DNA of 22,351 nt from a virus. Of this stretch, positions 135 through 17,300 are shown in pieces (the stretch's first letter is position 1; every line of letters starts with the position of its first letter). The DNA lies in IMG/VR virus record IMGVR_UViG_3300048029_000204, positions 1 to 22,351 of that record, one strand, 5' to 3'. The position numbers were made by a program, and so were the translations under genes. A model generated the notes under the pieces. That model ran no database searches. It was not told where the DNA came from and was given only the letters and a program-made list of their open reading frames with translations.

Positions 135-836
135 ATGGGACAAGGGTTCAGGACCAAGGAAGAAATGATGAAGGAAAGCCCTTGCTTCGAGGTGGCGACC
201 GAGCAAGAGATTGACGACATGCTGGCATGGTATCCGCGCACACCGACAGAGGCCAAGCAGGCTGGCATGATGTCATACTTCACCGGAGTGAGATGCAAAA
301 GGGGGCATTTGACGCTACGCCGAGCCGTAAACGCATCGTGCCGGGGCTGTGACAGGGAGAAGGGCAAAGAGCTTTACCACAAACACAGGGAGAAGCTCCG
401 CGAAAAGGCTTTGGAATGGTACAACAAGACAAGGAAAATCAATCCTGAGTACCGGAAAAGGGCCAAGCTGTATGCGCGGGATTGGAGACAGAAAAACCCC
501 GGCTACATGTCAAACCATATCCGCAAGAACCGCGCCCGGTACACTGCGCTTGAAGCTGAACGCAGAGCCACCATCAAGCGTGGCACGTTAAGCCACCTGC
601 CCGAAGATGTTTTCCTGCCCATCTATGAAGAAAGAGAACGCCTGACAGCAGAGACAGGGGCCGAGCATCACGTTGACCACTATTACCCAATAAAGGGGAA
701 GACCGTCTGCGGCCTTCATGTGCCGTGGAATCTGCACATAATAACTTGGGAAGAAAACCTGGCCAAAGGCAACAAGATGCCGGAAGACTTTTACGGGCCG
801 GACCACACACCTCCGACATGGGAAGGGGGCGATTAG
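135..836 (+). CDS. HNH endonuclease with Zn-knuckle
   Basis: This 233-residue protein is a probable HNH-type DNA endonuclease that nicks or cuts phage or host DNA in the cytoplasm. A treble-clef-like zinc site is visible at C54-x3-H58 and C69-x2-C72, followed by a long basic helical region rich in Lys, Arg and Tyr (about residues 73-145). The HNH core is near the C-terminus: H179-V-D181-H182, then N199 and N208 with K211-x-N213-K214. The layout resembles phage HNH and endonuclease VII-like proteins with an N-terminal Cys/His knuckle. The ATG at 135 has a strong ribosome site (GAGGAGG, 121-127) about 7 bases upstream. It could be a free-standing homing endonuclease or a functional recombination/packaging nuclease; no terminase gene is visible nearby to decide this. 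Confidence 0.85.
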   Translation: MGQGFRTKEEMMKESPCFEVATEQEIDDMLAWYPRTPTEAKQAGMMSYFTGVRCKRGHLTLRRAVNASCRGCDREKGKELYHKHREKLREKALEWYNKTRKINPEYRKRAKLYARDWRQKNPGYMSNHIRKNRARYTALEAERRATIKRGTLSHLPEDVFLPIYEERERLTAETGAEHHVDHYYPIKGKTVCGLHVPWNLHIITWEENLAKGNKMPEDFYGPDHTPPTWEGGD

Positions 837-1120: not shown

Positions 1121-1289
1121 GCTTGTTGCCGCCTTGACTACGCTTTGACCAGAACGGCTTTTGCGCGTCTGTTGGCCTGACCTTGCGCTGATAAGTGCCT
1201 TTAGCTGGTGGCGTTGCTTCAGGTGGTGCCGTTAATCTGGCCAGCACTCTGCTGAACTCGGCTATACTCATGTTGTCTGTGTTGCTCAT
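1110..1289 (-). CDS. Hidden small protein, 59 aa, Pro/Lys-rich
   Basis: An ATG (1289-1287) preceded by GGGAGGGA, one of the best ribosome sites in the window, opens a 59-codon frame ending in TAG at 1112-1110. The protein begins MSNTDNMSIAEFSRVLARLT, continues with a Pro-rich linker (APPEATPPAKG) and has a basic aromatic C-terminus containing KPFWSKRSQGGNKR. No known family is recognised. It overlaps the 3' end of the upstream PD-(D/E)XK gene by 71 bases and the convergent 64-residue gene by 8 bases. The three leftward genes here probably form one mini-operon. Strong SD and position support reality; function is unknown. Confidence 0.65.
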   Translation of the reverse strand: MSNTDNMSIAEFSRVLARLTAPPEATPPAKGTYQRKVRPTDAQKPFWSKRSQGGNKRAT

Positions 1290-1671
1290 CTGTCAATCCC
1301 TCCCTGACAATCATGCACCACGTCTCAAAGCTGACCTCAGCCGTGTCAGCCTTGCCCCAATATTCAGGATTAATGCTACTGAGAAAGACCACGCAGCGGA
1401 TAGACTGGCGGTCATACTTGTAGATGAGAACAGGCTCACACATGGCAGCGTCTGCCGCCTTGGTTACCTGCCGCCACCAATCTTGCTTGTAGGTGGAGCC
1501 AGAAGCGTAGCGTTTGCACTCAATGACCCAACCAGGCACACCAATCAGGTCACCCCGGTCACCGCTTCTGTATTGTTCGAGGTCTCGCTTGGCCTCAAAG
1601 CCCAAATGCTCGTAGCACATCCGAGCCACATCGCGCTCAAACTGCGCGCCTTTTGCACGTCCGTTAGTCAT
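1219..1671 (-). CDS. PD-(D/E)XK nuclease, Holliday-junction-resolvase-like
   Basis: This protein of about 150 residues carries the hallmarks of the PD-(D/E)XK fold as seen in Hjc-type resolvases and VRR-like phage nucleases. There is an N-terminal helix with a conserved Glu (KGAQFERDVARM, E12), then SGDRGDLIG with D41, then VIECKRY with E51-x-K53. It probably cleaves branched or damaged DNA during phage recombination. The ATG at 1671 overlaps the upstream gene by 8 bases and has GAGG close by; ATGs at 1680 and 1683 are alternatives that add 3 or 4 residues. It sits in a leftward three-gene block facing away from the exonuclease operon, which suggests shared recombination functions. A restriction-like nuclease is the alternative reading. 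Confidence 0.75.
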   Translation of the reverse strand: MTNGRAKGAQFERDVARMCYEHLGFEAKRDLEQYRSGDRGDLIGVPGWVIECKRYASGSTYKQDWWRQVTKAADAAMCEPVLIYKYDRQSIRCVVFLSSINPEYWGKADTAEVSFETWCMIVREGLTDEQHRQHEYSRVQQSAGQINGTT

Positions 1672-1864
1672 TGGCCTCATCATACTCTATTTCAAAATAG
1701 GGCATCAGTTTGCCCTCGCCTCCACACACACCGCACTCCCATGAGTAGCTGCGTGTGATGGCAAACCCTATTTCGCTATGCTCGTACAAGTCAATGGGGA
1801 TAACACCGTTACCTTCACACTTTTCGCAATCCAACAATTCATCTGAATCAAAAACAATAAACAT
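1664..1864 (-). CDS. Small Zn-knuckle protein (DnaJ-like CxxCxGxG), 66 aa
   Basis: Two Cys-rich repeats, CEKCEGNG and CGVCGGEG, match the CxxCxGxG pattern of the DnaJ zinc-binding domain and of many small phage and bacterial Zn proteins. The rest is acidic (FDSDELLD near the start, FEIEYDEAND at the end). A single bound zinc is likely; the partner is unknown. The ATG at 1864 is preceded by AGGTG at suitable spacing; an in-frame GTG at 1873 would add three residues. It is the first gene of the leftward block and its 3' end overlaps the resolvase-like gene. It could modulate that nuclease or act as an independent regulator. Confidence 0.65.
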   Translation of the reverse strand: MFIVFDSDELLDCEKCEGNGVIPIDLYEHSEIGFAITRSYSWECGVCGGEGKLMPYFEIEYDEAND

Positions 1865-1866
1865 AG

Positions 1867-1895
1867 TTGACACCTGTGTTGACTGTGTTAATAAG
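1867..1895 (+). promoter_or_regulatory. Candidate sigma70 promoter for the recombination operon
   Basis: A perfect TTGACA (1867-1872) is followed after 17 bases by AATAAG (1890-1895), four of six matches to TATAAT. The predicted start near 1902 leaves a leader of about 12 bases carrying the GGAGG of the exonuclease gene. A second TTGACT at 1879-1884 makes a direct repeat (TTGACACCTGTG then TTGACTGTG), which could be an operator. The site lies in the short gap between divergent genes. Confidence 0.4.
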
Positions 1896-1913: not shown

Positions 1914-2804
1914 ATGGAACGAACAATCCCTGATTACAGCTTGTTCTTTGGTCGGCAACACGTTAGCGCATCCGGCGCAACACAGCCGATTGACGAGCAT
2001 GTGCTGAAGCTGTTTCTTCGCAAAGAACACAAGATAAACTTCCCTTTCGCAGCGCGTCCTCGCGCAGGGCAGATAGTTCAAAGCATAGCCGACATGGCTC
2101 TTGGCGTCCACGACTACAGCCCCATCTATGGCCGCAAACAGCCTATTGATTTTCACGAGGCTGTGCGTCGGGGTCTGACAGAGTTTGAGTTTTACAAGCC
2201 GCGTGACTGGGACGGGGGCAAGGATGCAGAAGAACACAGCCACTTCAAAGAGGTCATCCCTGAGATGGCGCGATACGCTGTTGAAGGCATCAAGGAGTTC
2301 TATGACGGCGTCGAGTTCGAGGGCGAATACCAACGCTTCTACGACGAAGAAAAATTGGATGTCCCTGTCATCCTGTTCCAAGACTTTACGGGCGCTGGCA
2401 GACAGATTGACCTGAAATGTAGTCTGCCCCTGCGAAACCCGCCAAAGAAGGACGGCACCCGCACTTGGCGCAACCCGAAGCCCAAGACAGAACCCACTCC
2501 CCAGCAAATCATGCAACAGGCGGTCTATTGGAAGGCCACAGGCGACGAACCTGGCCTGTTGTTCGTGACACCTGCGGGCTACAACATCGTCACCGCCGAG
2601 AACTGTGACGCACTCAAGCCGGAGGCTCTCGAAGAGACCTACCAAGACGTAGTGCGTCGCTGGGTGGTGCAACAGAACTTGCTCAAGGCTGCTAATCAGA
2701 ACTGGAGCAATCTCTTTGGCCTTGTCCAGCCGGACTTTGGTCAAATCGCGGGCCGACACGGCCCTGACATCCTGAAAATAGCTAGAGAAACTTGGAGGTT
2801 ATAG
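1914..2804 (+). CDS. PD-(D/E)XK exonuclease (RecB/Cas4/lambda-exo type)
   Basis: This is a probable DNA-end-resecting nuclease of about 296 residues. Signature elements occur in the order expected for the RecB/Cas4 branch of the PD-(D/E)XK superfamily: an N-terminal helix RAGQIVQSIADMALG (G52), a metal-binding strand QDFTGAGRQIDLKCS containing D166-x-K168, and the downstream Q-x3-Y motif QQAVY (Q201 to Y205). It likely makes 3' single-stranded tails for annealing. The ATG at 1914 is chosen because GGAGG lies at 1904-1908; ATG 1902 is an alternative adding four residues. It heads a rightward operon with an annealing-type protein and an SSB-like protein, a lambda-Red-like arrangement. A candidate promoter lies just upstream. 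Confidence 0.8.
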   Translation: MERTIPDYSLFFGRQHVSASGATQPIDEHVLKLFLRKEHKINFPFAARPRAGQIVQSIADMALGVHDYSPIYGRKQPIDFHEAVRRGLTEFEFYKPRDWDGGKDAEEHSHFKEVIPEMARYAVEGIKEFYDGVEFEGEYQRFYDEEKLDVPVILFQDFTGAGRQIDLKCSLPLRNPPKKDGTRTWRNPKPKTEPTPQQIMQQAVYWKATGDEPGLLFVTPAGYNIVTAENCDALKPEALEETYQDVVRRWVVQQNLLKAANQNWSNLFGLVQPDFGQIAGRHGPDILKIARETWRL

Positions 2805-2806
2805 CT

Positions 2807-3064
2807 ATGGAACTCAAGATTGAACACAACATTCCACTGCCAGCAATCAACAAGGCTACCGGCAGAACCATGTCAGAGGAAACACGACTGGCTTTGAAGA
2901 TGAAGCCGGGCGACAGCATCTTTTGCCCGACCGGGCGCATTTACATGCGCATTGTCTCCGCTATGCGGAATCGCAAGCTGGCCTACGCAACGCGCAAGGT
3001 CGAGGGCGGCTATAGAGTGTGGCGCATTGATGGTCGGGCTTTGCCAAAAGCAGCCAATGCCTGA
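2807..3064 (+). CDS. Small phage protein, paralogue of the gene at 4521-4727
   Basis: The product is 85 residues, starting at ATG 2807 two bases after the exonuclease stop, with TTGGAGG (2791-2797) as ribosome site. Its shape is IPLPxxN near the start, MKPGDSIF in the middle and GGYRVWRID near the end. The same order (GIPVP, MEVGDCLV, GYRIWRIG) appears in the last gene of this operon, so the two are paralogues. The family is one I know as short unannotated phage proteins, and the fold is unknown. The basic segment RNRKLAYATRK would suit nucleic-acid contact. Position next to recombination genes suggests a role in DNA metabolism; that is inference. Confidence 0.7.
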   Translation: MELKIEHNIPLPAINKATGRTMSEETRLALKMKPGDSIFCPTGRIYMRIVSAMRNRKLAYATRKVEGGYRVWRIDGRALPKAANA

Positions 3065-3221
3065 CATTCAGGAGGTACAGCAGCAGCTAGACAGGCTTGA
3101 GGAACGCATGGTGCAGCTTCAAGCAGAGATGAGTGACATAAAGGCGGCTTGGACTGTCTTCATGCACTTGATGGCAGACCACTTGCACAAAGGAAAGGTA
3201 TTAGATGAGCAAGATAATTGA
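3057..3221 (+). CDS. Small coiled-coil protein, 54 aa
   Basis: ATG 3057 overlaps the preceding stop (ATGCCTGA), implying translational coupling. The 54-residue product is almost all helix: a heptad-like stretch from IQEVQQQLDRLEERMVQLQ through EMSDIKAAW, then a short hydrophobic segment (TVFMHLM) and an acidic tail. It probably forms a homo-oligomeric coiled coil. Its 3' end overlaps the start of the annealing-protein gene by 17 bases, again suggesting coupling. Function is unknown; a scaffold or partner for the recombination proteins is possible. Confidence 0.65.
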   Translation: MPDIQEVQQQLDRLEERMVQLQAEMSDIKAAWTVFMHLMADHLHKGKVLDEQDN

Positions 3222-3873
3222 TGCAATGGGGCTTGTCTCCGAGTTGAACAAGACGCATGGCGTCACTCAGCGCGGGGGTAAGAAATACACCCAGGTCGTT
3301 CACCGCATGGAAGCGTTCAGGACGGTCTTCGGGCTCGACTGCGGCGTGGACACGCAAATACTTGTTGATGATGGGCAACGTGTGGTTGTCAAAGCCGTTG
3401 TTACAGATGATAATGGCCACATCATCGGCTCAGGTATGGCAGAGGAAATCAGAGGACAGGGCAACGTCAACAAGACCAGCGCCTTGGAGAACTGTGAGAC
3501 ATCTGCCGTAGGACGCGCACTGGCAAGCATCGGTCTGTCCGGTGGTGAGTATGCCAGCGCCAATGAAATGGAGGCTGTGCCGAGAAAGCAGCAGAACTTG
3601 GAGACATCCGGTTCGGGCGGCGGCTCCGGTGGGAACCCTCCATCCCCTGTTGAGACGTCGTCCGATTCACAAGACGACCCGCACAGGGCGGCTGACGTAG
3701 ATGTGTACAAAAAGGCCCGCGTCAAGCTGGAGAACATCAAACTGCTTGGCGGTGTACACAATCTCTTCGCAGAGACCAAGCCACAAATCGCTGAAATCAA
3801 GGGGCGCAACCCTGCTCGTGCCAAAGCGCTCGTTGAATTATTTCAAAAGCACGAAGCCCGCCTTGGAGGTTAA
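3205..3873 (+). CDS. Putative single-strand DNA annealing protein (Erf/Rad52-like)
   Basis: This 222-residue protein resembles phage ssDNA-annealing or ssDNA-binding recombinases. The N-terminal domain is an alpha/beta region with QILVDDGQRVVVKAVVTD followed by the conserved-looking block N89-K-T-S-A-L-E-N and TSAVGRALASIGLSGGEY, similar to the TSAxGRALA element of many phage annealing-type proteins. A Gly/Ser/Pro-rich linker (about residues 134-155) then joins a C-terminal helical domain with many Lys. This domain-linker-tail layout is common in annealases. ATG 3205 has GGAAAGG upstream. Its position after an exonuclease and before an SSB-like gene strongly supports the role. Assignment to a specific superfamily (Erf, Rad52 or DUF1071) is not certain. 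Confidence 0.55.
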   Translation: MSKIIDAMGLVSELNKTHGVTQRGGKKYTQVVHRMEAFRTVFGLDCGVDTQILVDDGQRVVVKAVVTDDNGHIIGSGMAEEIRGQGNVNKTSALENCETSAVGRALASIGLSGGEYASANEMEAVPRKQQNLETSGSGGGSGGNPPSPVETSSDSQDDPHRAADVDVYKKARVKLENIKLLGGVHNLFAETKPQIAEIKGRNPARAKALVELFQKHEARLGG

Positions 3874-3875
3874 TC

Positions 3876-4208
3876 ATGGCAAGACAATGGAAAAACATCA
3901 CGCAGTTTCGGGCCTGGCCCAACGACAAAGGTGCCGCCAAGTACGGCAACAGCAAATGGACGCCGTACAAGGATGGCGCACCGGCTGACGTGCATCTGCG
4001 CGCAGACGTACAGTATTCCGTACGCGTGTATGAGAACGATGACGGAAGCATCACGCTGAAGGTTGAGCAGCCGATTGAATATGCTGGCACCGATAGCGTG
4101 GCTGACGACGTTTCGCAGGGTGGGTTTAAGCAGGTGGCGCAAGCCGCTGGCGTTCAGCAGGAGCAGAGAAAGTCTGCCATTAGCCTGGATGATGACAACC
4201 CATTCTAA
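3876..4208 (+). CDS. Putative SSB-like protein with acidic C-terminal tip
   Basis: The 110-residue product starts two bases after the annealing-protein stop. It ends in SLDDDNPF, closely resembling the DDDIPF tip by which bacterial SSB recruits partners, and also the acidic Phe-ending tail of T7 gp2.5. The body has an N-terminal Trp/Tyr-rich basic part (WKN, FRAW, KWTPYKDG) and alternating beta-type stretches (VQYSVRVYEN, ITLKVEQP) that could form a small OB-like fold. A Gln/Gly-rich segment precedes the tip. I infer a phage single-stranded DNA-binding protein. Length is shorter than a typical SSB (about 150-180), and the OB fold is not proven from sequence. Confidence 0.55.
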   Translation: MARQWKNITQFRAWPNDKGAAKYGNSKWTPYKDGAPADVHLRADVQYSVRVYENDDGSITLKVEQPIEYAGTDSVADDVSQGGFKQVAQAAGVQQEQRKSAISLDDDNPF

Positions 4209-4398
4209 AATAATCTTGGTAGTGCCTCGGCCAGACGGTTTGCTAGTAAGCATTGACGGCGTGTCCCACTACAGTGACATGGACGCAACGCAACTACTCT
4301 GGATGGCCGAGCGCTTCCTCAAAGCAGGATTGGAGGCCCAGCGTGAGGAAAAGAAAGCCGAGAAAGAAAACGCAGGACAGAAGGAAGCTGACTTGTGA
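4189..4398 (+). CDS. Small Lys/Glu-tailed phage protein, about 69 aa
   Basis: Tandem ATGs at 4189 and 4192 lie inside the end of the SSB-like gene, giving a 17-20 base overlap. The N-terminal half is beta-like (SKIILVVPRPDGLLVSIDG, then a helix DATQLLWMAERFLKAGLEAQ), and the C-terminus is a charged helix of alternating Glu and Lys. No recognised domain. The ribosome site is weak, so expression may depend on coupling to the upstream gene. Its 3' end overlaps the next gene by 56 bases. The acidic/basic tail could be a protein-interaction helix. Confidence 0.6.
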   Translation: MMTTHSKIILVVPRPDGLLVSIDGVSHYSDMDATQLLWMAERFLKAGLEAQREEKKAEKENAGQKEADL

Positions 4399-4531
4399 CT
4401 TCTGCGGCAAGGAACATTTTGTCATGGCTGGAACGTGGATTGCGAATGGGGAAGGACATTTCCTATGCCATGACATTACGACAGGAGGGTGTTTTGCAAA
4501 AGTGTGGAGAATGCGGGCAGGTGATACTTGA
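4343..4531 (+). CDS. Small zinc-finger protein, 62 aa (GTG start)
   Basis: A GTG at 4343 preceded by TTGGAGG (4330-4336) starts a 62-residue protein. It has a very basic N-terminus (RKRKPRKKTQDRRK) and then a Cys4-type zinc site: C18-x2-C21, C42 and C50, in the pattern CDFCGKEHFVMAG then HFLCHD then GGCF. The first pair and spacing resemble the ClpX-type zinc domain and ribbon-helix phage Zn proteins. The basic arm plus zinc knuckle suggests DNA or RNA binding. It overlaps genes on both sides in different frames. The strong SD chooses this GTG over upstream codons. Confidence 0.6.
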   Translation: MRKRKPRKKTQDRRKLTCDFCGKEHFVMAGTWIANGEGHFLCHDITTGGCFAKVWRMRAGDT

Positions 4532-4727
4532 AAAAGGCATACCTGTCCCCGGCGCAATGCGTGACAGATGGTCTATCCTTGGCCAAATGGAGGTTGGAGA
4601 TTGCCTTGTGGCGACCACAGTGTCAGACTATGAGAAGGTCCGCGGCGCAATGTATCACAGAGGCATGAAGTACCGGTCTCGCAAAGAGCCAAACGGTACA
4701 GGATACAGAATTTGGAGAATCGGATGA
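4521..4727 (+). CDS. Second copy of the small IPxP/GD/WRI phage protein family
   Basis: The segment ILEKGIPVPG, MEVGDCLVA and GTGYRIWRIG aligns in order and spacing with the gene at 2807-3064. GTG 4521 gives 68 residues and an N-terminus matching the paralogue, with GGAG about 11 bases upstream and an 11-base overlap with the zinc-finger gene. Alternative starts (GTG 4395, ATG 4446, TTG near 4488) would add an N-terminal extension with a KCGECGQ Cys pair. The C-terminal half is basic (YHRGMKYRSRKEP). It is the last gene of the rightward operon, 94 bases before the terminator. Function unknown; probably DNA metabolism by association. Confidence 0.6.
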   Translation: MILEKGIPVPGAMRDRWSILGQMEVGDCLVATTVSDYEKVRGAMYHRGMKYRSRKEPNGTGYRIWRIG

Positions 4728-4784: not shown

Positions 4785-4821
4785 ACCAGTTCCTCCCTAG
4801 CTAGAGAGTCTAGCCACTTAG

Positions 4822-4847
4822 CCCCCGCTTATCGGGGGTTCTTTTTT
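4822..4847 (+). terminator. Rho-independent terminator of the rightward operon
   Basis: CCCCCG (4822-4827) pairs perfectly with CGGGGG (4833-4838) around a five-base CTTAT loop and is followed by TTCTTTTTT (4839-4847). This is a textbook intrinsic terminator for rightward transcripts. On the opposite strand no T-tract follows, so it is one-directional. Confidence 0.85.
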
Positions 4848-4930
4848 CTGTTGTAAGAACCCCGGCCTTTGCGTGGCCGCACTACTCTTGGCTTGTAGAG
4901 AGGATTGGATAACTCAGCAGCAAAAGGATT
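4829..4930 (-). other. Open frame without a start codon, downstream of the 38-aa basic gene
   Basis: A 33-codon frame reads NPFAAELSNPLYKPRVVRP, then RKGRGSYNRKKNPR and stop TAA, with the stop inside the loop of the convergent terminator. The composition and the PLYKPRVV and YNRKK elements resemble short basic phage proteins, but no ATG, GTG or TTG opens it nearby. It is in the -1 frame relative to the 38-residue gene, whose last codons are CGC AAA AAG TAA. It may be made by -1 frameshifting on the A-run, from a non-standard start, or be a remnant. Confidence 0.35.
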
Positions 4931-5046
4931 TACTTTTTGCGCTTCATCGCTGGCTTTTTCTTCTTTGTGGTCATCGTGGCTGTCTTCATTGCCTTCTTCT
5001 TTGCGGCTGGTGACAGACCGTAACCGCCCTTGCCTTTTCCCATCAT
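4930..5046 (-). CDS. Tiny Lys-rich protein, 38 aa
   Basis: ATG 5046 overlaps the stop of the upstream gene (ATGA) and has AAAGGAAAG a few bases before it. The 38-residue product has 13 Lys and one Arg and no acidic residue, for example GKGKGGYGLSP, then AAKKKAMK, then TTKKKKPAMKRKK. It resembles other small basic proteins of this class of phage. A nucleic-acid-binding or packaged protein is plausible, with no direct evidence. Its 3' end is the candidate frameshift site described for the downstream frame. Confidence 0.6.
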   Translation of the reverse strand: MMGKGKGGYGLSPAAKKKAMKTATMTTKKKKPAMKRKK

Positions 5047-5357
5047 GACTTCTTTCCTTTCTTAGCTTTGTTGCGCTTGGAGATAGCTGCTGCCTTCTTC
5101 TTTGCGTCAGCCTTGCTGCTTGCACCCCATGCCCTGAGAGACAGCAAGAGCCGGGTAGGTTTGCCCTTCGCATCACGCTCTGGCCCTCTCATGCCACCCA
5201 TTCGTGCAAGGAAGCTGGCCCTGCGTGGGTTGTCGCCCTTCTTTACAGGCGCTTTCAGGTTCATGCCCTGCCTCTTTGCAGAGGCTCTGCCCTTTGCGTT
5301 CAGCCCGCCCTTCGGGCTCTTGCCAGCCTTACGCTGCCACGCCGGAGTCTTAGCCAT
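5043..5357 (-). CDS. Basic phage protein, 104 aa (DUF6321-like)
   Basis: The sequence contains KSPKGGLNAKGRASAKRQG, NPRRASFLARMGGM, GPERDAKGKPTRLLLSL and WGASSKADAKKKAAAISKR. I recognise this pattern as a common phage hypothetical family, which I recall as DUF6321; the number should be checked. It is strongly basic throughout with a Lys-rich C-terminus. The start at 5357 overlaps the stop of the upstream gene (TAATG), and its end overlaps the 38-residue gene by ATGA. The function is unknown. Conservation across phages suggests a virion-associated or DNA-binding role rather than a dispensable accessory one. Confidence 0.8.
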   Translation of the reverse strand: MAKTPAWQRKAGKSPKGGLNAKGRASAKRQGMNLKAPVKKGDNPRRASFLARMGGMRGPERDAKGKPTRLLLSLRAWGASSKADAKKKAAAISKRNKAKKGKKS

Positions 5358-5476
5358 TACTTCTTCTTCTTCTTCATCTTGCTGGCCTTCTTCAAGTCAG
5401 CACCTGTGATTTTCTTGCGAGGCTTGGCCATTGCCGCCAGCTTCTTTTGCTTTGGGGAATATTTAGAATAAGGCAT
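5357..5476 (-). CDS. Tiny Lys-rich protein, 39 aa
   Basis: ATG 5476 is preceded by GGAGA at good spacing, and the TAA stop overlaps the next start (TAATG). The 39-residue product reads MPYSKYSPKQKKLAAMAKPR and ends in a run of five Lys, with 15 Lys and one Arg in total. The Lys run is encoded by five tandem AAG codons. It matches a recurrent small phage protein type that I cannot name. Function is unknown; nucleic-acid binding is plausible from charge alone. Confidence 0.65.
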   Translation of the reverse strand: MPYSKYSPKQKKLAAMAKPRKKITGADLKKASKMKKKKK

Positions 5477-5489
5477 GTAAGTCTCCACG

Positions 5490-5930
5490 CTAAACATTAC
5501 GCATACGCTCAACGAGCCTGTCAGCCCGTGCCGTTACTTGGTTATACCACAAACTGTCCACCATCTCATCCGCAGCGCGGCTCCAATCCCTGTCATCTAC
5601 CGCTGCCTTCATGCCTCTGAATTTGGACAGGCGCGGCAAACCCATATTGAAGAGCATGTTGGCGATGATAAGCTGCACCTGTTCCGGCAACTCATCAAAG
5701 TCTTCATATAGCTTGCGACAGTCTTCCAGCGTAATCGTGATGTCGGCCTCGAAGGCCTCCTGCACCCTTTCGTCGCTAATAGAAGTGCCAACTGGCTCAC
5801 CATATTCAGGGTCTTTCTTTGTAATCATATGGCCGATGCCAAGAGTGGGATGCCCCGCCGGACAAATGTAAATTTCGTTGACGCAGCCCTCGTCTGCCTT
5901 GAGGTCATCACATAGTTTGTTCAGGTTCAT
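5490..5930 (-). CDS. Endolysin, T4-type lysozyme (GH24 muramidase)
   Basis: This enzyme cuts the glycan backbone of peptidoglycan to lyse the host. The GH24 catalytic pattern Glu-8aa-(Asp/Cys)-5aa-Thr is visible as E14, C23 and T29 in DEGCVNEIYICPAGHPTLGIGH; the Cys variant is known in the family. Later elements MLFNMGLPRLSKF and SLWYNQVTARADRLVERMR match the C-terminal lobe of T4 lysozyme. Length is 146, against 164 for T4. There is no signal peptide or anchor, so export to the wall needs a holin, for which nearby membrane proteins are candidates. The start overlaps the upstream stop by ATGA, so the gene is coupled to the basic 86-residue gene. Confidence 0.93.
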   Translation of the reverse strand: MNLNKLCDDLKADEGCVNEIYICPAGHPTLGIGHMITKKDPEYGEPVGTSISDERVQEAFEADITITLEDCRKLYEDFDELPEQVQLIIANMLFNMGLPRLSKFRGMKAAVDDRDWSRAADEMVDSLWYNQVTARADRLVERMRNV

Positions 5931-6187
5931 CGTGTCTTCCTGTATCTCTTTGTCTTCTTTGCGATTCGTTTTGGCTGCTTGCTGACTTGTTTTCCGGCTC
6001 TAGTAGCCTTCCTCTTCGCTCTCGTGGTCGCCGCATATTCTTGGGAAGAGAGCGCTTTAATAGCTCTTGACGGTAGATAGCGCTCCCCGGTTGCTTTCGG
6101 ACCCTGTGTGGACGGCTTGCCACTCTTGGTTCTCCATTTCTGTTTCGTCCAAGATTTGAGACTGCGTTGTGGTTTTTTGAGAGCCAT
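5927..6187 (-). CDS. Basic phage protein, 86 aa (DUF5872-like)
   Basis: The sequence SLKSWTKQKWRTKSGKPS, then GERYLPSRAIKALSSQEY, then KRAGK-type basic repeats and KQPKRIAKKTKRYRK is a pattern I recall as DUF5872, found in cyanophages and related viruses; the number should be checked. Nearly a third of the residues are Lys or Arg. The start ATG 6187 overlaps the upstream stop (TAATG), and its own stop overlaps the lysozyme start. Function unknown. The conserved Trp and Tyr positions suggest a folded domain rather than a simple basic tail. Confidence 0.8.
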   Translation of the reverse strand: MALKKPQRSLKSWTKQKWRTKSGKPSTQGPKATGERYLPSRAIKALSSQEYAATTRAKRKATRAGKQVSKQPKRIAKKTKRYRKTR

Positions 6188-6369
6188 TATCTGTAGCCCC
6201 CACCCTTAGCCTTGTACTGTTTAGCCAGCATCTGCGCTTTGCGGGCAGACCACTGCCCCGGCTTGCCGCCTTTGCCGCCAGCCTTAATCTTGTTGAACAA
6301 GTTTTTGCGCATGGTGGGCTTGGTGTAGTTACCAGCCTCGTTCACACGGCTCTTTGGCTTCTTCTTCAT
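6187..6369 (-). CDS. Small basic phage protein, 60 aa
   Basis: The product reads KSRVNEAGNYTKPTMRK, then NKIKAGGKGGKPGQWSARK, then QMLAKQYKAKGGGYR. This GGKGGKPGQWSARKAQ element is one I have seen repeatedly in phage hypothetical proteins, often beside the DUF6321- and DUF5872-like genes. It is highly basic and short. Starts and stops interlock with neighbours (ATGA upstream, TAATG downstream), so it is translated within the lysis-region chain. Function is unknown. Confidence 0.75.
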   Translation of the reverse strand: MKKKPKSRVNEAGNYTKPTMRKNLFNKIKAGGKGGKPGQWSARKAQMLAKQYKAKGGGYR

Positions 6370-6743
6370 TTCTTTAATCCCTTGAGGCCGCGAAGGCCAA
6401 ACGATGCAGCTATACTAGCGTACATGGCCCACTGGAACCAGTCAGGTGTACGGCCCAACGCATCGAACCCGCGCTCGACATAGGGCTGTAGAGGGGGGAT
6501 GAAGCACATGGCTATGATGGCTATGAACAAGATGGTCCAGGCTTCGTCCTTCCAGCTATCCTTGGAAGCCTCGGCCATAATCTTTTCCCAGCCAGCCTCA
6601 TGCGTAGCCGCAACGCGCATCACCTCGGCCTCTGCCTCGGCCTTGGCAATCTTGACTTGGGACTTGGCGGCTTTCTCAGCGGCCTTGCCCTTGAGCCAGC
6701 CACCAGCCAGTTCGCCAAAGATGGGGATGAGAGCCTGAATCAT
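6366..6743 (-). CDS. Membrane protein, holin candidate, 125 aa
   Basis: An amphipathic N-terminal region with a long Ala/Glu/Lys helix (about residues 18-60) precedes two membrane segments, at about 68-85 (AWTILFIAIIAMCFIPPL) and 102-117, and a basic C-terminus (RGLKGLKK). The WKDE element before the first segment and the overall layout recall the three-TM holin family (PF11351) found in phages and gene transfer agents. Position two genes upstream of the lysozyme supports a lysis role. It would form inner-membrane holes that release the endolysin. The next gene upstream (6740-6946) is also membrane-bound, so which one is the holin is undecided. Confidence 0.7.
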   Translation of the reverse strand: MIQALIPIFGELAGGWLKGKAAEKAAKSQVKIAKAEAEAEVMRVAATHEAGWEKIMAEASKDSWKDEAWTILFIAIIAMCFIPPLQPYVERGFDALGRTPDWFQWAMYASIAASFGLRGLKGLKK

Positions 6744-6946: not shown

Positions 6947-7377
6947 TATAATCTCCCTTGGTGATGCAGGATTAGGGCAATCAATGACCCAAATACAGCA
7001 AGGCAGCAGATGATGAATAGCGTTATGATACTGCCGTCTATAATCTTTCTGCGCTTTGCCGCTGAAGCAATAGCCGCCTCTCGTCTAGCTACGCGCGCCT
7101 GTGCCTGAAATCTTTGCCAGTCATTCCATAATCCGGGGCGACCTGTATAAATCATCAGTTCTTTGAGTTGCTTCTCCTGCTCCCTTATTTTTTCAAGGGC
7201 GAGGAAGCTTTCCAAGTCTGAGCCAGTGCCGTTCTTGTCAGCCTTCTTCTCTAGCTTTTCCTTAGCACCCACAAATTGAGCGATTGCATTGCCCGCTGCG
7301 GCAATCTCTTTGCCGTTCTGGACAGCTTGCTTGATAACGGCGAAGGCGGCATTGGCGGCGGCTAGTTCAGCAAGCAT
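6946..7377 (-). CDS. Coiled-coil protein with C-terminal membrane anchor, 143 aa
   Basis: The N-terminus is an Ala-rich helix (LAAANAAFAVIKQAVQNG), followed by a charged Lys/Glu region and the element MIYTGRPGLWNDWQRFQAQ. A strong single TM segment spans about residues 115-137 (GSIITLFIICCLAVFGSLIA and onward), with a short basic tail. The MIYTGRPGLW element is one I associate with a recurrent marine phage protein family of unknown role. A tail-anchored inner-membrane protein is likely. Position in the lysis chain makes a spanin-like or holin-partner role possible, but the topology is opposite to a normal i-spanin. Confidence 0.7.
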   Translation of the reverse strand: MLAELAAANAAFAVIKQAVQNGKEIAAAGNAIAQFVGAKEKLEKKADKNGTGSDLESFLALEKIREQEKQLKELMIYTGRPGLWNDWQRFQAQARVARREAAIASAAKRRKIIDGSIITLFIICCLAVFGSLIALILHHQGRL

Positions 7378-7562
7378 TAGTAAATCCTCGTGCTGTCACG
7401 CATTACCTGTATGGGTAAGCAGTAGCTGGTAATCTTCCCTCCTTGCTTATGAAGACGCTGTGCGAAATACACACAATCATCCACATTCCAAAAGTACATG
7501 TCCTGGCTTTTAGGCTTGCCGTCTAGGAAGACGTACAGCAGAAACACATGCACCAGTTCCAC
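7377..7562 (-). CDS. Small protein, 61 aa (GTG start)
   Basis: A GTG at 7562 opens this 61-residue frame. It has a hydrophobic start (VFLLYVFLDGKP), a Cys in VDDCVYFAQRLHKQGGK and another in ITSYCLP. The DDCxxFAxxLxKQ-YCLP pattern is one I recognise from small phage proteins of unknown function. The N-terminus could insert in the membrane, leaving the two Cys in an oxidising compartment. The start is two bases past the upstream stop, and the end overlaps the next gene by TAATG. The ribosome site is weak. Confidence 0.6.
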   Translation of the reverse strand: MELVHVFLLYVFLDGKPKSQDMYFWNVDDCVYFAQRLHKQGGKITSYCLPIQVMRDSTRIY

Positions 7563-7563
7563 A

Positions 7564-7728
7564 TCACTTGCGCCTAGTCAGCTTGCGAACAGTCTCAGTC
7601 TCCCAGATGCGGATAAGCACCCAGATGCCGGTGACGATTGCCACGGCGTTCGGGGCCATATCCATCATCGCAGCGGCGGTGCCTGTACCCGCCGCAACAT
7701 CAACAAATATTTTCTGCTCTTCTGGCAT
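7564..7728 (-). CDS. Hidden small membrane protein, 54 aa, holin candidate
   Basis: ATG 7728 with a GGTAG-type ribosome site opens a 54-residue frame that exactly fills the space between its neighbours. An Ala/Met-rich helix (AAGTGTAAAMMDMAP) leads to one TM segment, NAVAIVTGIWVLIRIW, and a basic tail (TVRKLTRRK). One TM with a charged tail, encoded after the tail fibre, recalls the position and shape of the T7 gp17.5 holin. It is a candidate holin; two longer membrane proteins downstream compete for that role. Confidence 0.65.
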   Translation of the reverse strand: MPEEQKIFVDVAAGTGTAAAMMDMAPNAVAIVTGIWVLIRIWETETVRKLTRRK

Positions 7729-7730
7729 CT

Positions 7731-8084
7731 CTACCAGCCCGACGGTACTGCCTGACGCATTGGCGGGTTGGCCAGCGCTGTCATCTGGTCATCGAGCAAC
7801 GTCTGCATCTCGTCTTCGGTCTTGTTGAGTGACTCAAGCGTCTTGGTCTTGGCCCAGTCCTTTGTAACGCTGTCAAAGGCAACAAAGTCAGGGTCGTCAG
7901 CTTCCGGTGTCTCCAGACCAGCGGTGCCGTATGCCGACACAGACAGCGGCTGGCCTTCTGCGTTTGTCTCGCTGTCGCTGACGGCTGTGACGCGCCAGTG
8001 GATAGTCTTGATGCAGTCGTCATGCCCATTCTCAGGCTGATTGCAGACGTCGAAGTTGAAGTTCCAAGTGTATGTGTTGGCCAC
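7731..8084 (-). CDS. Tail-fibre-linked phage protein, 117 aa (DUF7936-like)
   Basis: A GTG at 8084 preceded by AGGAGA gives ANTYTWNFNFDVCNQPENG at the N-terminus, then TIHWRVTAVSDSE and a C-terminal helix with MTALANPPMRQAVPSGW. This MANTYTW...HW...NPP...W layout is a recurrent phage family located beside tail or fibre genes, which I recall as DUF7936 (number to be checked). A longer in-frame ATG at 8144 overlaps the upstream gene and lacks a better ribosome site. The role is unknown; association with the tail fibre, or a chaperone-like function, is inferred from position only. Confidence 0.7.
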   Translation of the reverse strand: MANTYTWNFNFDVCNQPENGHDDCIKTIHWRVTAVSDSETNAEGQPLSVSAYGTAGLETPEADDPDFVAFDSVTKDWAKTKTLESLNKTEDEMQTLLDDQMTALANPPMRQAVPSGW

Positions 8085-14500: not shown

Positions 14501-14761
14501 AATAAACCCGTGTTGGTCTTCGGGTATGCCCTTAGTCAGTGTGGCCAGGTTCTCGTCTGTGAGCCTGAAATCCGGGTCTGGCGCAAAGTCCTCTAGGCCA
14601 TTGAAAATCCACGACATTGTGTTTTCTTCTGAGAAGGCAGCGTCCGCCGCCTGCCCAAAAGTAACCTTGGCGCGTTCTTCTTCGTAAAGACGTTCAGCCT
14701 CCTGCTCGTCCAGAAGGCTGATAGGTCTCGCTACTTGGATTTTATCAGGGTCAAGAGCCAC
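11564..14761 (-). CDS. Large internal virion (ejection) protein, gp16-like, 1065 aa
   Basis: By size, composition and order (third after tail tubular B and two other ejection proteins) this matches the T7 gp16-type internal core protein, which is ejected into the host envelope to help move DNA. Two Gly/Ala-rich hydrophobic stretches near residues 115-155 and 187-212 (LQIAAATLDVPAIAATVA; ILYAAGGGFLLGGALDSAFG) could insert in the membrane. The C-terminal third has MGKILTQFRAFMLVSHSKQF, an element I recall from podovirus virion proteins. No soluble lytic transglycosylase motif is visible, unlike T7 gp16. GTG 14761 has AGGAAGG upstream, and the gene overlaps its predecessor by 11 bases. At 1065 residues it is shorter than T7 gp16 (about 1300), consistent with a missing enzymatic domain. 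Confidence 0.8.
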   Translation of the reverse strand: MALDPDKIQVARPISLLDEQEAERLYEEERAKVTFGQAADAAFSEENTMSWIFNGLEDFAPDPDFRLTDENLATLTKGIPEDQHGFITEAVSMPHAMKLRERALDSLKNQETLAKYGWGGVGLQIAAATLDVPAIAATVATEGAAAPFIWGAKAGRIGRVFRNATTSAASAAAIESYLVSQNSMKDPYDILYAAGGGFLLGGALDSAFGAISAKRYKSAVKKIMNDVEAAQTADVNRAMQDRGIDTGVGAMENPMSRPTQDIEIRRGISERLDDADAEPMADFGRWRFDIVGQVKNSAIGLSRRVVSMLGEDAVNPGEFTADLMKTVGTKRMSNKFYQQYETSYEGWAKASGVNFAQRRMDSRRSEFGRLVSDEIEMPGSSSNPDIINAANNVRGLFSEMLNEAKKAGVKGFDNIPENLSYFTHMWDGHRFLKYESEFGEDIPRLLATSLRNANPRMSEEVAEAIGEGMTKKIMKREVGIDSGLARMFSTSNKEALRDILLEEEVLSEDMVDRVIGQLDFDREGLGPRARRRLEFDMSASVERNGKTLHIKDLMERDTEAVVNAYINQMQGRIALAKKGIFSDGDFESLKKDIRAAGREIGNTPQAERDIQKLDVLYALISGRPSPLIGNPTSDANRITRLLMDYNFLRVMNQVGFAQISELGNAVSIDGTMALLRVVPDFKAMVKRAANGELEDVVARELEALVAPGVDRNIQQSMNRYSVEDLYSLGKGDTIDRAINFIQPLKRATADISGLAPITAILERSAAKIALQSLVDTASGIKKVRMKKLGKTSLEQDIATRLASLGLDEAMWPRVVNQINKHVETRPSMFSKSRKVKAINTDAWDDIEARDALGLAIARWTRQSIQQNDVGNLNIHMTSTMGKILTQFRAFMLVSHSKQFLHNIKRNDFAAYSAMMWSCFYGGAAYTLQTHVNAVGRDDKEEFLRERLSAEEIGKAAFQRSSWAALLPGGIEAIMWATGQEPVFAYKRTTGLATSFIAGNPVVDLLDTTENVIRGGARAAFNEEYQWSRGQQRALNSLLPFQNAIGIKNVLNTMVEGLPEQARIQD

Positions 14762-17300
14762 TTTCTGCCTTCCTCAATTCAAGCAACAACTGCCGGACAA
14801 GCTCGGCTTCATTCCGCAACTGCTCTCTCTTGCCGATTGCAGCTTCGGCTGCGGCCTCGCCTTCTTCTTGCCGTATCCTGGACAAGGTTCCGCCCGTTAG
14901 CGCGTTTGCTTCTCGGTTCAGCCTTTGGAACTCTTCCGTAACTTGGTCAATTGTGGTCAGCCCACGAGCCTCAAGGTTTTGCCTAATAAGTTCGGCGTTG
15001 TCCGACTGCTTGTCCTTAGCCAAGAGACCTTGCAGGTCTTCAAAGGTATACACAGACCCCTCATAACTTGTCGGGGCAAGTGTTCCATTGACCATGACAT
15101 TCCATTCATCAGCACGGCCAGGTGTTGGGAATATACTAACTTGCTCATCAGCCATGTTGGGGTTTTTGGCGATAAAGTCAGCCGCAGCCAAGTCAGCCAT
15201 GCGGGTCAGGTCTTGCGGATAACTACTGCTGCGCGGGATATACATGCCACGCAAATTAATGTGGGATGCCTCCATTTGCTCCGCTGCCTTTTTGACAGCA
15301 TCACGCCTAGGCAAGCCATGACCAATGTAAATCTTGGACAAGTCTTCCAGCTTTTGATGAAGGTAAGACCTGTTGGTGATTGTTTCCCCAGATAAAGTTA
15401 CGCCAAATATTTCAAACACACTACCGTCAAGGATACGGTCAACTTCTGGTTTTATGTTTTTGTATGCAGCGTTGATGTCAATCTCTGTACGCAAGGCAAG
15501 GCTTACCTTACGAATAGCGTCCTCTGTCTCAACGCCCACAGATTCCAAGGCCAGAACAGAATTGAAAAAGGCTTGGGAGTCCTCATCTGCGTGGTTGTTT
15601 AGCACGCCGCTTCCTCGAACTTTCGCTTGCCGATACAGCTCTAAGCCTTGCATAACTTGGGTCATGTCTGGCGTAGCGCCGCGGCCCTCTACAGAAGCAC
15701 CGTCAATAGTGTTCTTAATTGGCTCATAGACAAGGTTATTTTGCTCAAGAAGCTCAAATTGCTGCGGCAAGCTCTTGCCCGCGATTGCCTGTTCTAACGC
15801 AGCATTGGTTTGTTTAGACGTGAAACTAGACCCAAGTGAATCAAGTACACCGTTTTCAATTAAGTCTTTTGCCAACGATATTTGGCCAGCCTCAACGCGC
15901 TTGGATTGGGAGTTAGCCATAAGGCCACTTGTGCTTGTAAAGATGCTGTTGGCCGATGTCGCAACCGCCCCGGTTTTATCCCGCAACGAAACCAACCCGC
16001 CAAGTGGTTCATTTAAAAGAAGCTGGCTGGCAGAGGCCAAAGAGTCTGCGTTGTCATAATCTCCGGCGTCATAGGCAGCTTGGGCATCGGCTGCAAACCG
16101 CCGAGCCTGTGCAAGTATTGCCGCGTCCGCGTCTTCCTCACTGACGTCATCTCTAAGGCGGATGTTTGTTATAGTCGAAAGCAACCCTGCCGCGCCTTCA
16201 GCATCATATCCGCCAGCAATTTCACCGGACAGAAGATTGCGCGTCTCTTGTGTAAATTCTTTGGCAATGTCGTTGGCCATCTTGCTGATTTCAATACGCC
16301 TGCCAATTGGCATGTCCTTCACAGAGAAGGACAACTCATCGCCGTTTGCGCGGATGATGGAAAAGTCCTCACCCTTGTCAAAGCCATCCTTCACGGCAGA
16401 CGCCTCTGCGGACGACAGGGCTGACTCTACAATGGTCTCTCGCGTTGAGTCATAAAGCTCAGTGGCAAGGCGCTCCTTTGTTGCACGGGCAACACCAAGT
16501 GCTTCTGCCTTCTTTCCTGGCGGTATTGTCTCGTCATCAATAATTACTTTCAGGGTCGCATCAACGTCAGCCGGATTTGCCGCGTCTTGGAACCCAGCGT
16601 TTGCGGCCTCAAGCTTTGATGTCAGGCTAAAGGACTGAGGGGTGTATTTTAGTTTCCTGTTTTCGTTCCCTGCTGTTGTGAAGATGTCGTCAATCTGGCT
16701 CATTATCAAGTCACGCTCAGGAGAGCCTGATGGGTAAGTGCGAAGCGTTTGCAGAGCATCATCAAGGAACTGGTTGTCAGTTTCTGTGGCGATGCGCGTT
16801 CCGTTATCAAACGCTTTCTGCTTTGCGCCCAAGCGGTTTGAGGAGAAAACATTTTGCGCTGCGTTGAGGGCGACTTGTTCAAAGCGCGGGGTGTAACCAC
16901 GCCCACGGATGTTGTCTGCAAACTTCTCAAACTCTCCGTCGAATCTTGCTTCTGCCTCAGCTACGCTGCGGCTGTTGTCTTCTATAAGCATGGTGCCGAA
17001 AGTGTCTTGAGCCTCGCGCGTAAGCTCCTTTAGGGTGGTCTTCTCCTCGCGCTCCTTTTCCGCCATCTTAAAATCAAAATCAATCTTTGCCTTCTCAGCG
17101 TCAAAACGTTGCTTGTTTTGCAAAATACGCATTTCGCCTTCTGCATACTGACGACCGGCACGACCAACAGTTTCTCCCAACGCGGCCATTTGCCGAGCCG
17201 GTGCCGTAAAAACATCTGTACTAGCCCTTGCGCCAAGTTGGCCTGTGGCAAGAGGAACTTGCGACGGACCAGCTTTGTTATACAGAGGTATTTTCGGCAT
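14751..17300 (-). CDS. Internal virion (ejection) protein, gp15-like, 849 aa
   Basis: Second and middle-sized of three ejection proteins, in the position of T7 gp15 (747 residues). It starts MPKIPLYNKAGPSQVPLATG, a form I recognise in marine podoviruses. A long charged helical region follows (about residues 55-110, rich in Glu/Lys), and most of the protein is predicted-looking helix, ending in a coiled coil (about 800-845, with Glu/Arg/Leu repeats). It probably forms part of the periplasmic tunnel or core stack during DNA ejection. No enzymatic motif seen. The ATG directly follows the stop of the upstream gene with no gap, implying coupled translation. Confidence 0.82.
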   Translation of the reverse strand: MPKIPLYNKAGPSQVPLATGQLGARASTDVFTAPARQMAALGETVGRAGRQYAEGEMRILQNKQRFDAEKAKIDFDFKMAEKEREEKTTLKELTREAQDTFGTMLIEDNSRSVAEAEARFDGEFEKFADNIRGRGYTPRFEQVALNAAQNVFSSNRLGAKQKAFDNGTRIATETDNQFLDDALQTLRTYPSGSPERDLIMSQIDDIFTTAGNENRKLKYTPQSFSLTSKLEAANAGFQDAANPADVDATLKVIIDDETIPPGKKAEALGVARATKERLATELYDSTRETIVESALSSAEASAVKDGFDKGEDFSIIRANGDELSFSVKDMPIGRRIEISKMANDIAKEFTQETRNLLSGEIAGGYDAEGAAGLLSTITNIRLRDDVSEEDADAAILAQARRFAADAQAAYDAGDYDNADSLASASQLLLNEPLGGLVSLRDKTGAVATSANSIFTSTSGLMANSQSKRVEAGQISLAKDLIENGVLDSLGSSFTSKQTNAALEQAIAGKSLPQQFELLEQNNLVYEPIKNTIDGASVEGRGATPDMTQVMQGLELYRQAKVRGSGVLNNHADEDSQAFFNSVLALESVGVETEDAIRKVSLALRTEIDINAAYKNIKPEVDRILDGSVFEIFGVTLSGETITNRSYLHQKLEDLSKIYIGHGLPRRDAVKKAAEQMEASHINLRGMYIPRSSSYPQDLTRMADLAAADFIAKNPNMADEQVSIFPTPGRADEWNVMVNGTLAPTSYEGSVYTFEDLQGLLAKDKQSDNAELIRQNLEARGLTTIDQVTEEFQRLNREANALTGGTLSRIRQEEGEAAAEAAIGKREQLRNEAELVRQLLLELRKAESGS

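Follow-up and report, generated by a model that had tools for sequence, protein, structure and literature searches.

A widespread marine-phage recombination operon with a predicted exonuclease, a predicted Rad52/Mgm101-type annealase, an SSB-like protein and conserved small companions

Introduction

What do eight tightly packed genes of a podovirus-like genome fragment do together, and why do five of them encode proteins of fewer than ninety residues? The fragment is IMG/VR virus record IMGVR_UViG_3300048029_000204, whose 22,351 bp we call the window; its minus-strand half encodes a lysozyme together with tail and internal virion proteins of the podovirus type (phrog_376, 394, 342, 418), and the genes in question lie at 1914-4727 on the plus strand. 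An earlier note, made from the letters and their open reading frames (ORFs), had proposed that they form an operon in which a RecB/Cas4-type nuclease, a putative annealing protein and a protein resembling single-stranded DNA-binding protein (SSB) are joined by a coiled-coil protein, a zinc-finger protein and two small paralogues. Our analysis indicates that the operon very probably encodes a phage machine for end resection and single-strand annealing, although what each protein does, in which order the steps follow and which proteins interact are all inferred. This reading is supported by the nuclease motifs, the predicted fold of the annealase, the acidic tip of the SSB-like protein, the co-conservation of the genes and the independent replacement of the exonuclease (exo), annealase and SSB slots.

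Results

Eight genes under constraint

The count and the coordinates of the genes were right in the earlier note. In order they encode exo, small A, the coiled coil, the annealase, the SSB-like protein, ORF6, the Zn finger and small B, with intergenic gaps of +2, -8, -17, +2, -20, -56 and -38 bases. Compared with close relatives, the ratio of nonsynonymous to synonymous substitution rates (dN/dS) is 0.06-0.11 for exo, 0.08-0.17 for the SSB-like gene, 0.08-0.12 for small B, 0.14-0.27 for small A, 0.10-0.32 for the coiled coil, 0.15-0.24 for the annealase and 0.19-0.40 for ORF6. Constraint is least clear for the Zn finger (0.37-0.82), whose ratio is inflated because its ORF overlaps both neighbouring genes. 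The eight ORFs are real genes under constraint and not chance ORFs. A search for DNA-level relatives of the operon among phage records came back empty.

The exonuclease

Exo (1914-2804, plus strand; 296 residues) is a PD-(D/E)XK nuclease of the RecB/Cas4/lambda-exo type and, judged from its sequence, a probable end-resecting exonuclease. Residues D157, D166-L-K168, Q201 and Y205 are invariant in an alignment of 32 non-redundant members; D157 and D166-L-K168 fit the D-x(n)-(D/E)-x-K catalytic motif, and Q201 and Y205 fit the QxxxY motif of the RecB/Cas4 branch, in agreement with the class first proposed for this protein. Homologues occur in pelagiphage HTVC028P, where the protein is annotated as a "putative nuclease", in HTVC106P and in phage C72C1, and the motif could be matched by eye to GxxD and ExK in the C72C1 and HTVC proteins. 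The C72C1 homologue matches the Cas4-like phrog_1706 (2.6e-4), and five relatives of the window exo matched no nuclease family, the best hit being DraIII at 0.049.

In two related phages the exonuclease appears to be split between two genes, the first with the N-terminal SPSQL...GQAxQ part and the second with the catalytic C-terminal part, at 4157-4411 and 7170-7808 in HTVC106P (L082) and at 3518-3805 and 6466-7101 in L085; in both, the annealase and SSB-like genes sit between the halves.

The annealase

The annealase (3205-3873, plus strand) is predicted to consist of a Rad52/Mgm101-type core (residues 1-116), a linker and a helical C-terminal domain. Sequence searches returned PHROGs of unknown function only, the best being phrog_11717 (1.6e-25). 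In the AlphaFold2 (AF2) model, which has a predicted local distance difference test score (pLDDT) of 77, residues 1-116 form helices and three long strands, and the top VIA-align matches of this core are human RAD52 (Z 10.5, root-mean-square deviation (rmsd) 2.8, 112 residues) and yeast Mgm101 (Z 9.9, rmsd 3.1, 112 residues), and unrelated folds begin at about Z 7.1. Neighbouring viral models in BFVD carry the names ERF, SAK3 and Rad52, and a homologue in the GenBank podovirus MW202512 is labelled "mgM101-like". Within the conserved stretch NxTSAxENxExSAxGRAL, R104 is invariant, a position read from the sequence alignment; in human Rad52 the basic DNA-groove residues K152/R153/R156 lie on the helix after the sheet (PMC3823998). 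That the protein is a single-strand annealing protein of the Rad52/Mgm101 type is well supported by its modelled core fold, its activity being a prediction, and the putative annealing protein of the earlier note has acquired both a fold in structure prediction and, in relatives, a curated family in its slot.

Other identities were considered and rejected. The top Foldseek matches were SnoaL-like and superposed with an rmsd >9 Angstrom, whereas VIA-align ranked RAD52 and Mgm101 first. RecT/Redbeta (PF03837) was discarded, the window annealase having no Pfam family at E<=1 and none of 38 members a RecT match, as was Erf (PF04404), which gave no match in the window at E<=10. A relation to Sak (phrog_659/8492) received an hhalign probability of 0.2 against the C72C1 Sak, although the two may share a superfamily fold.

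The SSB-like protein

The SSB-like protein (3876-4208, plus strand; 110 residues) ends in the acidic tip DDDNPF, encoded at 4188-4205. An acidic tip ending in PF is conserved in 34/34 aligned proteins, with PF itself invariant and most relatives reading DD(D/E)(I/V)PF. The family aligns over its full length with the C72C1 SSB family in hhalign (probability 90, E 1.5e-6), two members match phrog_18154 (best 0.0036), and the conserved N-terminal region is predicted to contain beta strands. The window protein did not match PF00436 in Pfam, and tblastn of the SSB-like and small B proteins against annotated phages found nothing. We call the protein a putative SSB because of its tip, the weak profile match and the replacement of its slot; on these points the earlier proposal stands, while the OB fold that it anticipated did not emerge.

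The N before PF makes the window tip a single-residue variant, since this position is I or V in almost every other relative of the alignment. One relative (L003) has an annealase identical to the window's and an SSB-like protein that is 99% identical, yet its tip is DDDIPF.

Replacement of the core slots by curated families

The exo, annealase and SSB positions are occupied by other, curated families in related loci. Among the 46 records or contigs of our distant-annealase set, 16 carry a PF00436 SSB, always downstream and on the same strand as the annealase; 12 of these SSB genes lie no more than 1.5 kb away, against about 4 expected. Exonucleases of the DUF3799 or YqaJ type are present in 15/46, on the same strand in 14 and within 1.5 kb in 12 (about 3 expected), and one contig (L137) has a DUF3799 exonuclease, the annealase and a PF00436 SSB in the order seen in the window. 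The C72C1 sister group provides the complementary case. It has a homologous exo (1e-25 to 5e-30) and a homologue (up to 7e-62) of the resolvase that flanks the window operon, a Zn finger homologue adjoining the SSB gene (2.5e-5 at best; hhalign probability 95) and, in three loci, an ORF6 homologue (1.6e-9, with 0.23 for the reversed-sequence control); that control upholds the links of the Zn finger, ORF6, exo and the resolvase to the group. Its annealase is Sak-type (phrog_8492, 3.7e-38), and in L168 the SSB-like slot holds a canonical SSB (PF00436, 1.5e-21) ending in DDNIPF. Because three kinds of gene replacement put curated families in these slots, the roles assigned to exo, the annealase and the SSB-like protein are supported, and we regard this comparison of sequences as the strongest evidence for the predicted roles of the module.

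Members of the C72C1 group (L083 at 6307-6657 and its relatives L167-L173) also have a short DnaA C-terminal-domain protein (PF08299, 4.6e-20) encoded after the Zn finger, which suggests an origin-binding protein within the recombination module.

Conservation of the layout

An annealase scan of IMG/VR found 377 relatives, of which the best 80 were retained; with the window and the window's own copy these make 82 sources, many of them cut by contig ends. The layout shared by the 80 loci begins with a divergent PDDEXK_15/RusA-like gene and a Zn-ribbon gene, followed by exo, in some cases small A, then the coiled coil, annealase, SSB-like, ORF6, Zn finger and small B genes. Exo is present in 73 of the 82 sources, the coiled coil in 65, the SSB-like gene in 80, ORF6 in 61 and the Zn finger in 74. 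Small B occurs in 56/82 (47 by single-sequence search with phmmer), and small A is the least constant member, with phmmer matches in 29/82 that include cross-matches to small B. On the opposite strand, 57 sources have the PDDEXK_15/RusA-like gene and 63 the Zn-ribbon gene beside it. The small genes are thus conserved together with the nuclease, strongly so for the Zn finger, ORF6 and the coiled coil and more weakly for small A, and the idea that they lack any conserved linkage to it is rejected. No integrated relatives were confirmed in a scan of genome contigs.

Two of the loci (L012 and L020) belong to one contig, IMGVR_UViG_3300025889_000115 (64,029 bp), which holds two complete, diverged copies of the operon about 30 kb apart, whose annealases share 80% and 74% identity with that of the window. 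It looks as if two related phage genomes had been joined, or as if the assembly were chimeric.

The small proteins

Small A (2807-3064, plus strand; 85 residues, isoelectric point (pI) 10.5) is strongly basic, and small B (4494-4727, plus strand; 77 residues) starts at a TTG after AGGAGG and has an N-terminal CxxC ahead of its basic GD...RxWR domain. The GD...RxWR core is common to both, and the earlier suggestion that the two are paralogues is borne out by BLASTP (29% identity, E 2e-9) and hhalign (98.4%). Pfam returned nothing usable for A/B members, the matches to RAMA at 0.016 being weak. Two A/B relatives lie directly upstream of a distant annealase in L120/L121; in L118 and L119 the strand opposite to the annealase carries such relatives, at a distance of 1.7-2.6 kb, and the L118 homologue, used as a query against the contigs, matched itself only.

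The Zn finger (4343-4531, plus strand; GTG start, 62 residues) is a basic four-cysteine protein in which C18, C21, W32 and C50 are invariant and C42 is more than 90% conserved in the alignment, as befits the zinc-finger protein first described. ORF6 (4189-4398, plus strand; 69 residues) is a small conserved protein. The coiled coil (3057-3221, plus strand) is short and acidic (54 residues, pI 4.66, charge -6.6) and belongs to a family with a median pI of 4.6, a median charge of -7.7 and the heptad pattern expected from its original description. Being small, strongly acidic and coiled-coil, it shares the properties of RecBCD inhibitors of the T7 gp5.9/lambda Gam type; T7 gp5.9 is itself a small acidic coiled-coil RecBCD inhibitor (PMC9836394), a likeness that we treat as an analogy and not as a test of homology. 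Coiled-coil matches to distant loci (0.16 in L153) were no better than noise. Profile searches of PDB sequences, made for the operon proteins generally, gave chance matches only.

Flanking genes and regulatory elements

The module is wider than the earlier note stated, since resolvase, Zn-ribbon and endonuclease VII-like genes flank the operon. The PDDEXK_15/RusA-like Holliday-junction endonuclease (1219-1683, minus strand; PF24608 2.6e-11, phrog_244 7.9e-19) is divergent from the operon and is also found in the C72C1 group. Its gene is overlapped by that of a zinc-ribbon protein (1664-1873, minus strand) with weak DnaJ-type CxxC matches, and an endonuclease VII-like (HNH) gene lies upstream (135-836, plus strand; phrog_1035 1.7e-18).

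A conserved TTGACA (1867-1872, plus strand) stands 47 bases before exo and occurs within 130 bases of exo in 27/31 loci, where about 0.04 would be expected per 125 bases; it is the probable -35 element of the operon promoter. A wider element at 1861-1905, approximately TTGACA(G)-N2-TGGCAA-N8-TA, whose -10 hexamer is poor, is seen in the same place in most related loci, and this TTGACA-containing element may be a phage promoter or operator. On the 3' side of the operon is a hairpin with a T run resembling an intrinsic terminator (4820-4840, plus strand), a kind of site about as frequent as shuffled sequences predict.

Very small lysine-rich ORFs surround the lysozyme gene that adjoins the operon (4829-6369, minus strand), such as the one at 6187-6369 ending in AQMLAKQYKAKGGGYR. 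Further along the minus strand (14751-17300), an 849-residue protein without a PHROG match adjoins the internal virion proteins and is possibly a divergent T7 gp15-like protein.

Discussion

A mechanism can be drawn for the operon by analogy with SPP1 (PMC3485210) and HK620 (PMC5928155). The PD-(D/E)XK nuclease would resect the double-stranded ends of phage DNA, with a 5'-3' polarity assumed from those systems, and the SSB-like protein would coat the exposed strand. Its acidic DDDxPF tip could then pass the strand to the Rad52/Mgm101-like annealase, which would pair it with a phage strand of complementary sequence. Branches formed in this way may be trimmed or resolved by the two flanking nucleases, the PDDEXK_15/RusA-like and the endonuclease VII-like one, so that genomes are repaired and concatemers become available for packaging. 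Most likely the accessory proteins work on these DNA intermediates too, and their individual roles are guesses: the basic Zn finger and A/B proteins could be nucleic-acid-binding helpers, and the acidic coiled coil could act either as an adaptor or as a decoy that engages host RecBCD/AddAB. The earlier suggestion that the small proteins load or regulate the machinery is one possibility among these.

Several results weigh against this reading. Pfam found no match in any of the 32 exo members, for which reason we infer the exonuclease activity, and none for the window annealase; because neither protein matches Pfam, both assignments rest on motifs, fold and context. The annealase model has a predicted template modelling score (pTM) of 0.49, and Foldseek alone gave zero PDB matches at E<=0.001. 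The AF2 model of the SSB-like protein is poor (pLDDT 65), with a best Z of 3.6 to an unrelated chain; structure searches with it recovered no OB fold, which we do not take as absence. A tipped protein is found downstream in none of the HTVC028P group (0/33), although exo and the annealase are present there, so a hand-over through the tip is not universal.

These points leave room for other explanations. The nuclease could be mainly a degrader of host DNA, or Cas4-like, and its pairing with the annealase incidental. The fold family is broad and the C72C1 homologue does match a Cas4-like PHROG, but the two genes occur together in the groups of the window, HTVC028P and HTVC106P, and more distant annealases have exonucleases of other families, DUF3799 and YqaJ, as partners, which makes this explanation highly improbable. 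For the 110-residue protein, a role as an adaptor or decoy that does not bind single-stranded DNA, its SSB-type tip recruiting host SSB-interacting proteins or competing with host SSB, would agree with the missing OB fold, with the tip being its best conserved feature and with the weakness of the profile match to annotated phage SSBs. We consider such a role unlikely, however, in view of the conserved N-terminal region with its beta strands, the hhalign match to the C72C1 SSB family along the whole length and the canonical SSB in the same slot in L168.

A larger chance attaches to the explanation that the small proteins have nothing to do with recombination and, perhaps as anti-host factors, share only the operon promoter as passengers. 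Early phage operons often carry anti-host genes, small A is patchy, and the opposite-strand A/B relatives in L118 and L119 stand apart from the annealase. The passenger explanation is nevertheless doubtful for the set as a whole, because the Zn finger, the coiled coil and ORF6 are retained in most sources, relatives of the Zn finger and of ORF6 are found with exo even in loci that have a different annealase family, and two A/B homologues directly precede the distant annealase in L120/L121. Since the Zn finger and ORF6 stay with exo when the annealase is swapped, they could form with it a loading platform for different, interchangeable annealases and SSBs; the Zn finger, ORF6 and the coiled coil would then be dedicated parts of an exo-centred resection complex, in which the coiled coil also blocks the host end-resection enzyme in the manner of gp5.9 or Gam. 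We offer this last proposal as a speculation with rather low odds of being correct in full.

Under the favoured reading, that of a resection and annealing machine, a likely Rad52/Mgm101-type annealase function can be given to phrog_11717, a large family of "unknown function" in marine phages including SAR11 phages, with several hundred relatives in each viral-contig search. The small proteins that accompany exo across the annealase swap are candidates for loading or protecting phage recombination intermediates, and the module might serve as a new toolkit for recombineering in marine bacteria. The part that deserves further work is the small proteins, most of all the Zn finger and ORF6, kept with exo while the annealase and SSB are exchanged.

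Comparison with known systems

A close precedent in content is SPP1, which encodes exonuclease G34.1P, recombinase G35P and SSB G36P in one operon and has a RusA-like resolvase, G44P (PMC3485210). The same four activities are predicted for the window module. The differences are that its annealase is Rad52/Mgm101-like whereas G35P is RecT-like, that its resolvase gene is divergent and adjacent, and that conserved Zn finger, ORF6 and coiled-coil genes are added.

The earlier parallel to lambda Red/SSB or phage exonuclease-annealase sets named the three core genes correctly, as motifs, fold and slot replacement indicate. Like lambda Red (exo, bet, gam), the window pairs an exonuclease and an annealase with a small partner gene; unlike it, the window has no RecT/Redbeta or YqaJ-type exonuclease match by Pfam. 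The Red set is not known to contain an SSB gene. The inhibition of RecBCD encoded by gam is a precedent for the acidic coiled coil (PMC9836394). In P22, the Erf/Arf/Abc1/Abc2 operon brings together a Rad52-superfamily annealase and several small accessory proteins, not all of which have been characterised (PMC9836394), and the window resembles it in both respects; the P22 set, in contrast, has no exonuclease and modifies RecBCD through Abc2, and PF04404 finds nothing in the window.

Podovirus MW202512 (mgM101-like, exonuclease, hypothetical, SSB) has a homologous annealase in the same kind of module with a different gene order, and phage C72C1 (hypothetical nuclease, Sak-like, SSB) shares exo, the Zn finger and the resolvase and differs in its annealase family. 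In HK620 the Sak4 annealase is stimulated through the C-terminal tip of its cognate SSB (PMC5928155), a phage annealase working via its own SSB's tip as we propose for the window, although Sak4 is a RecA-like ATPase of another fold and the HK620 tip reads NDYPPF. The operon is a real, widespread marine-phage recombination module of a well-known kind, in the style of lambda Red, SPP1 and P22, to which conserved small proteins have been added.

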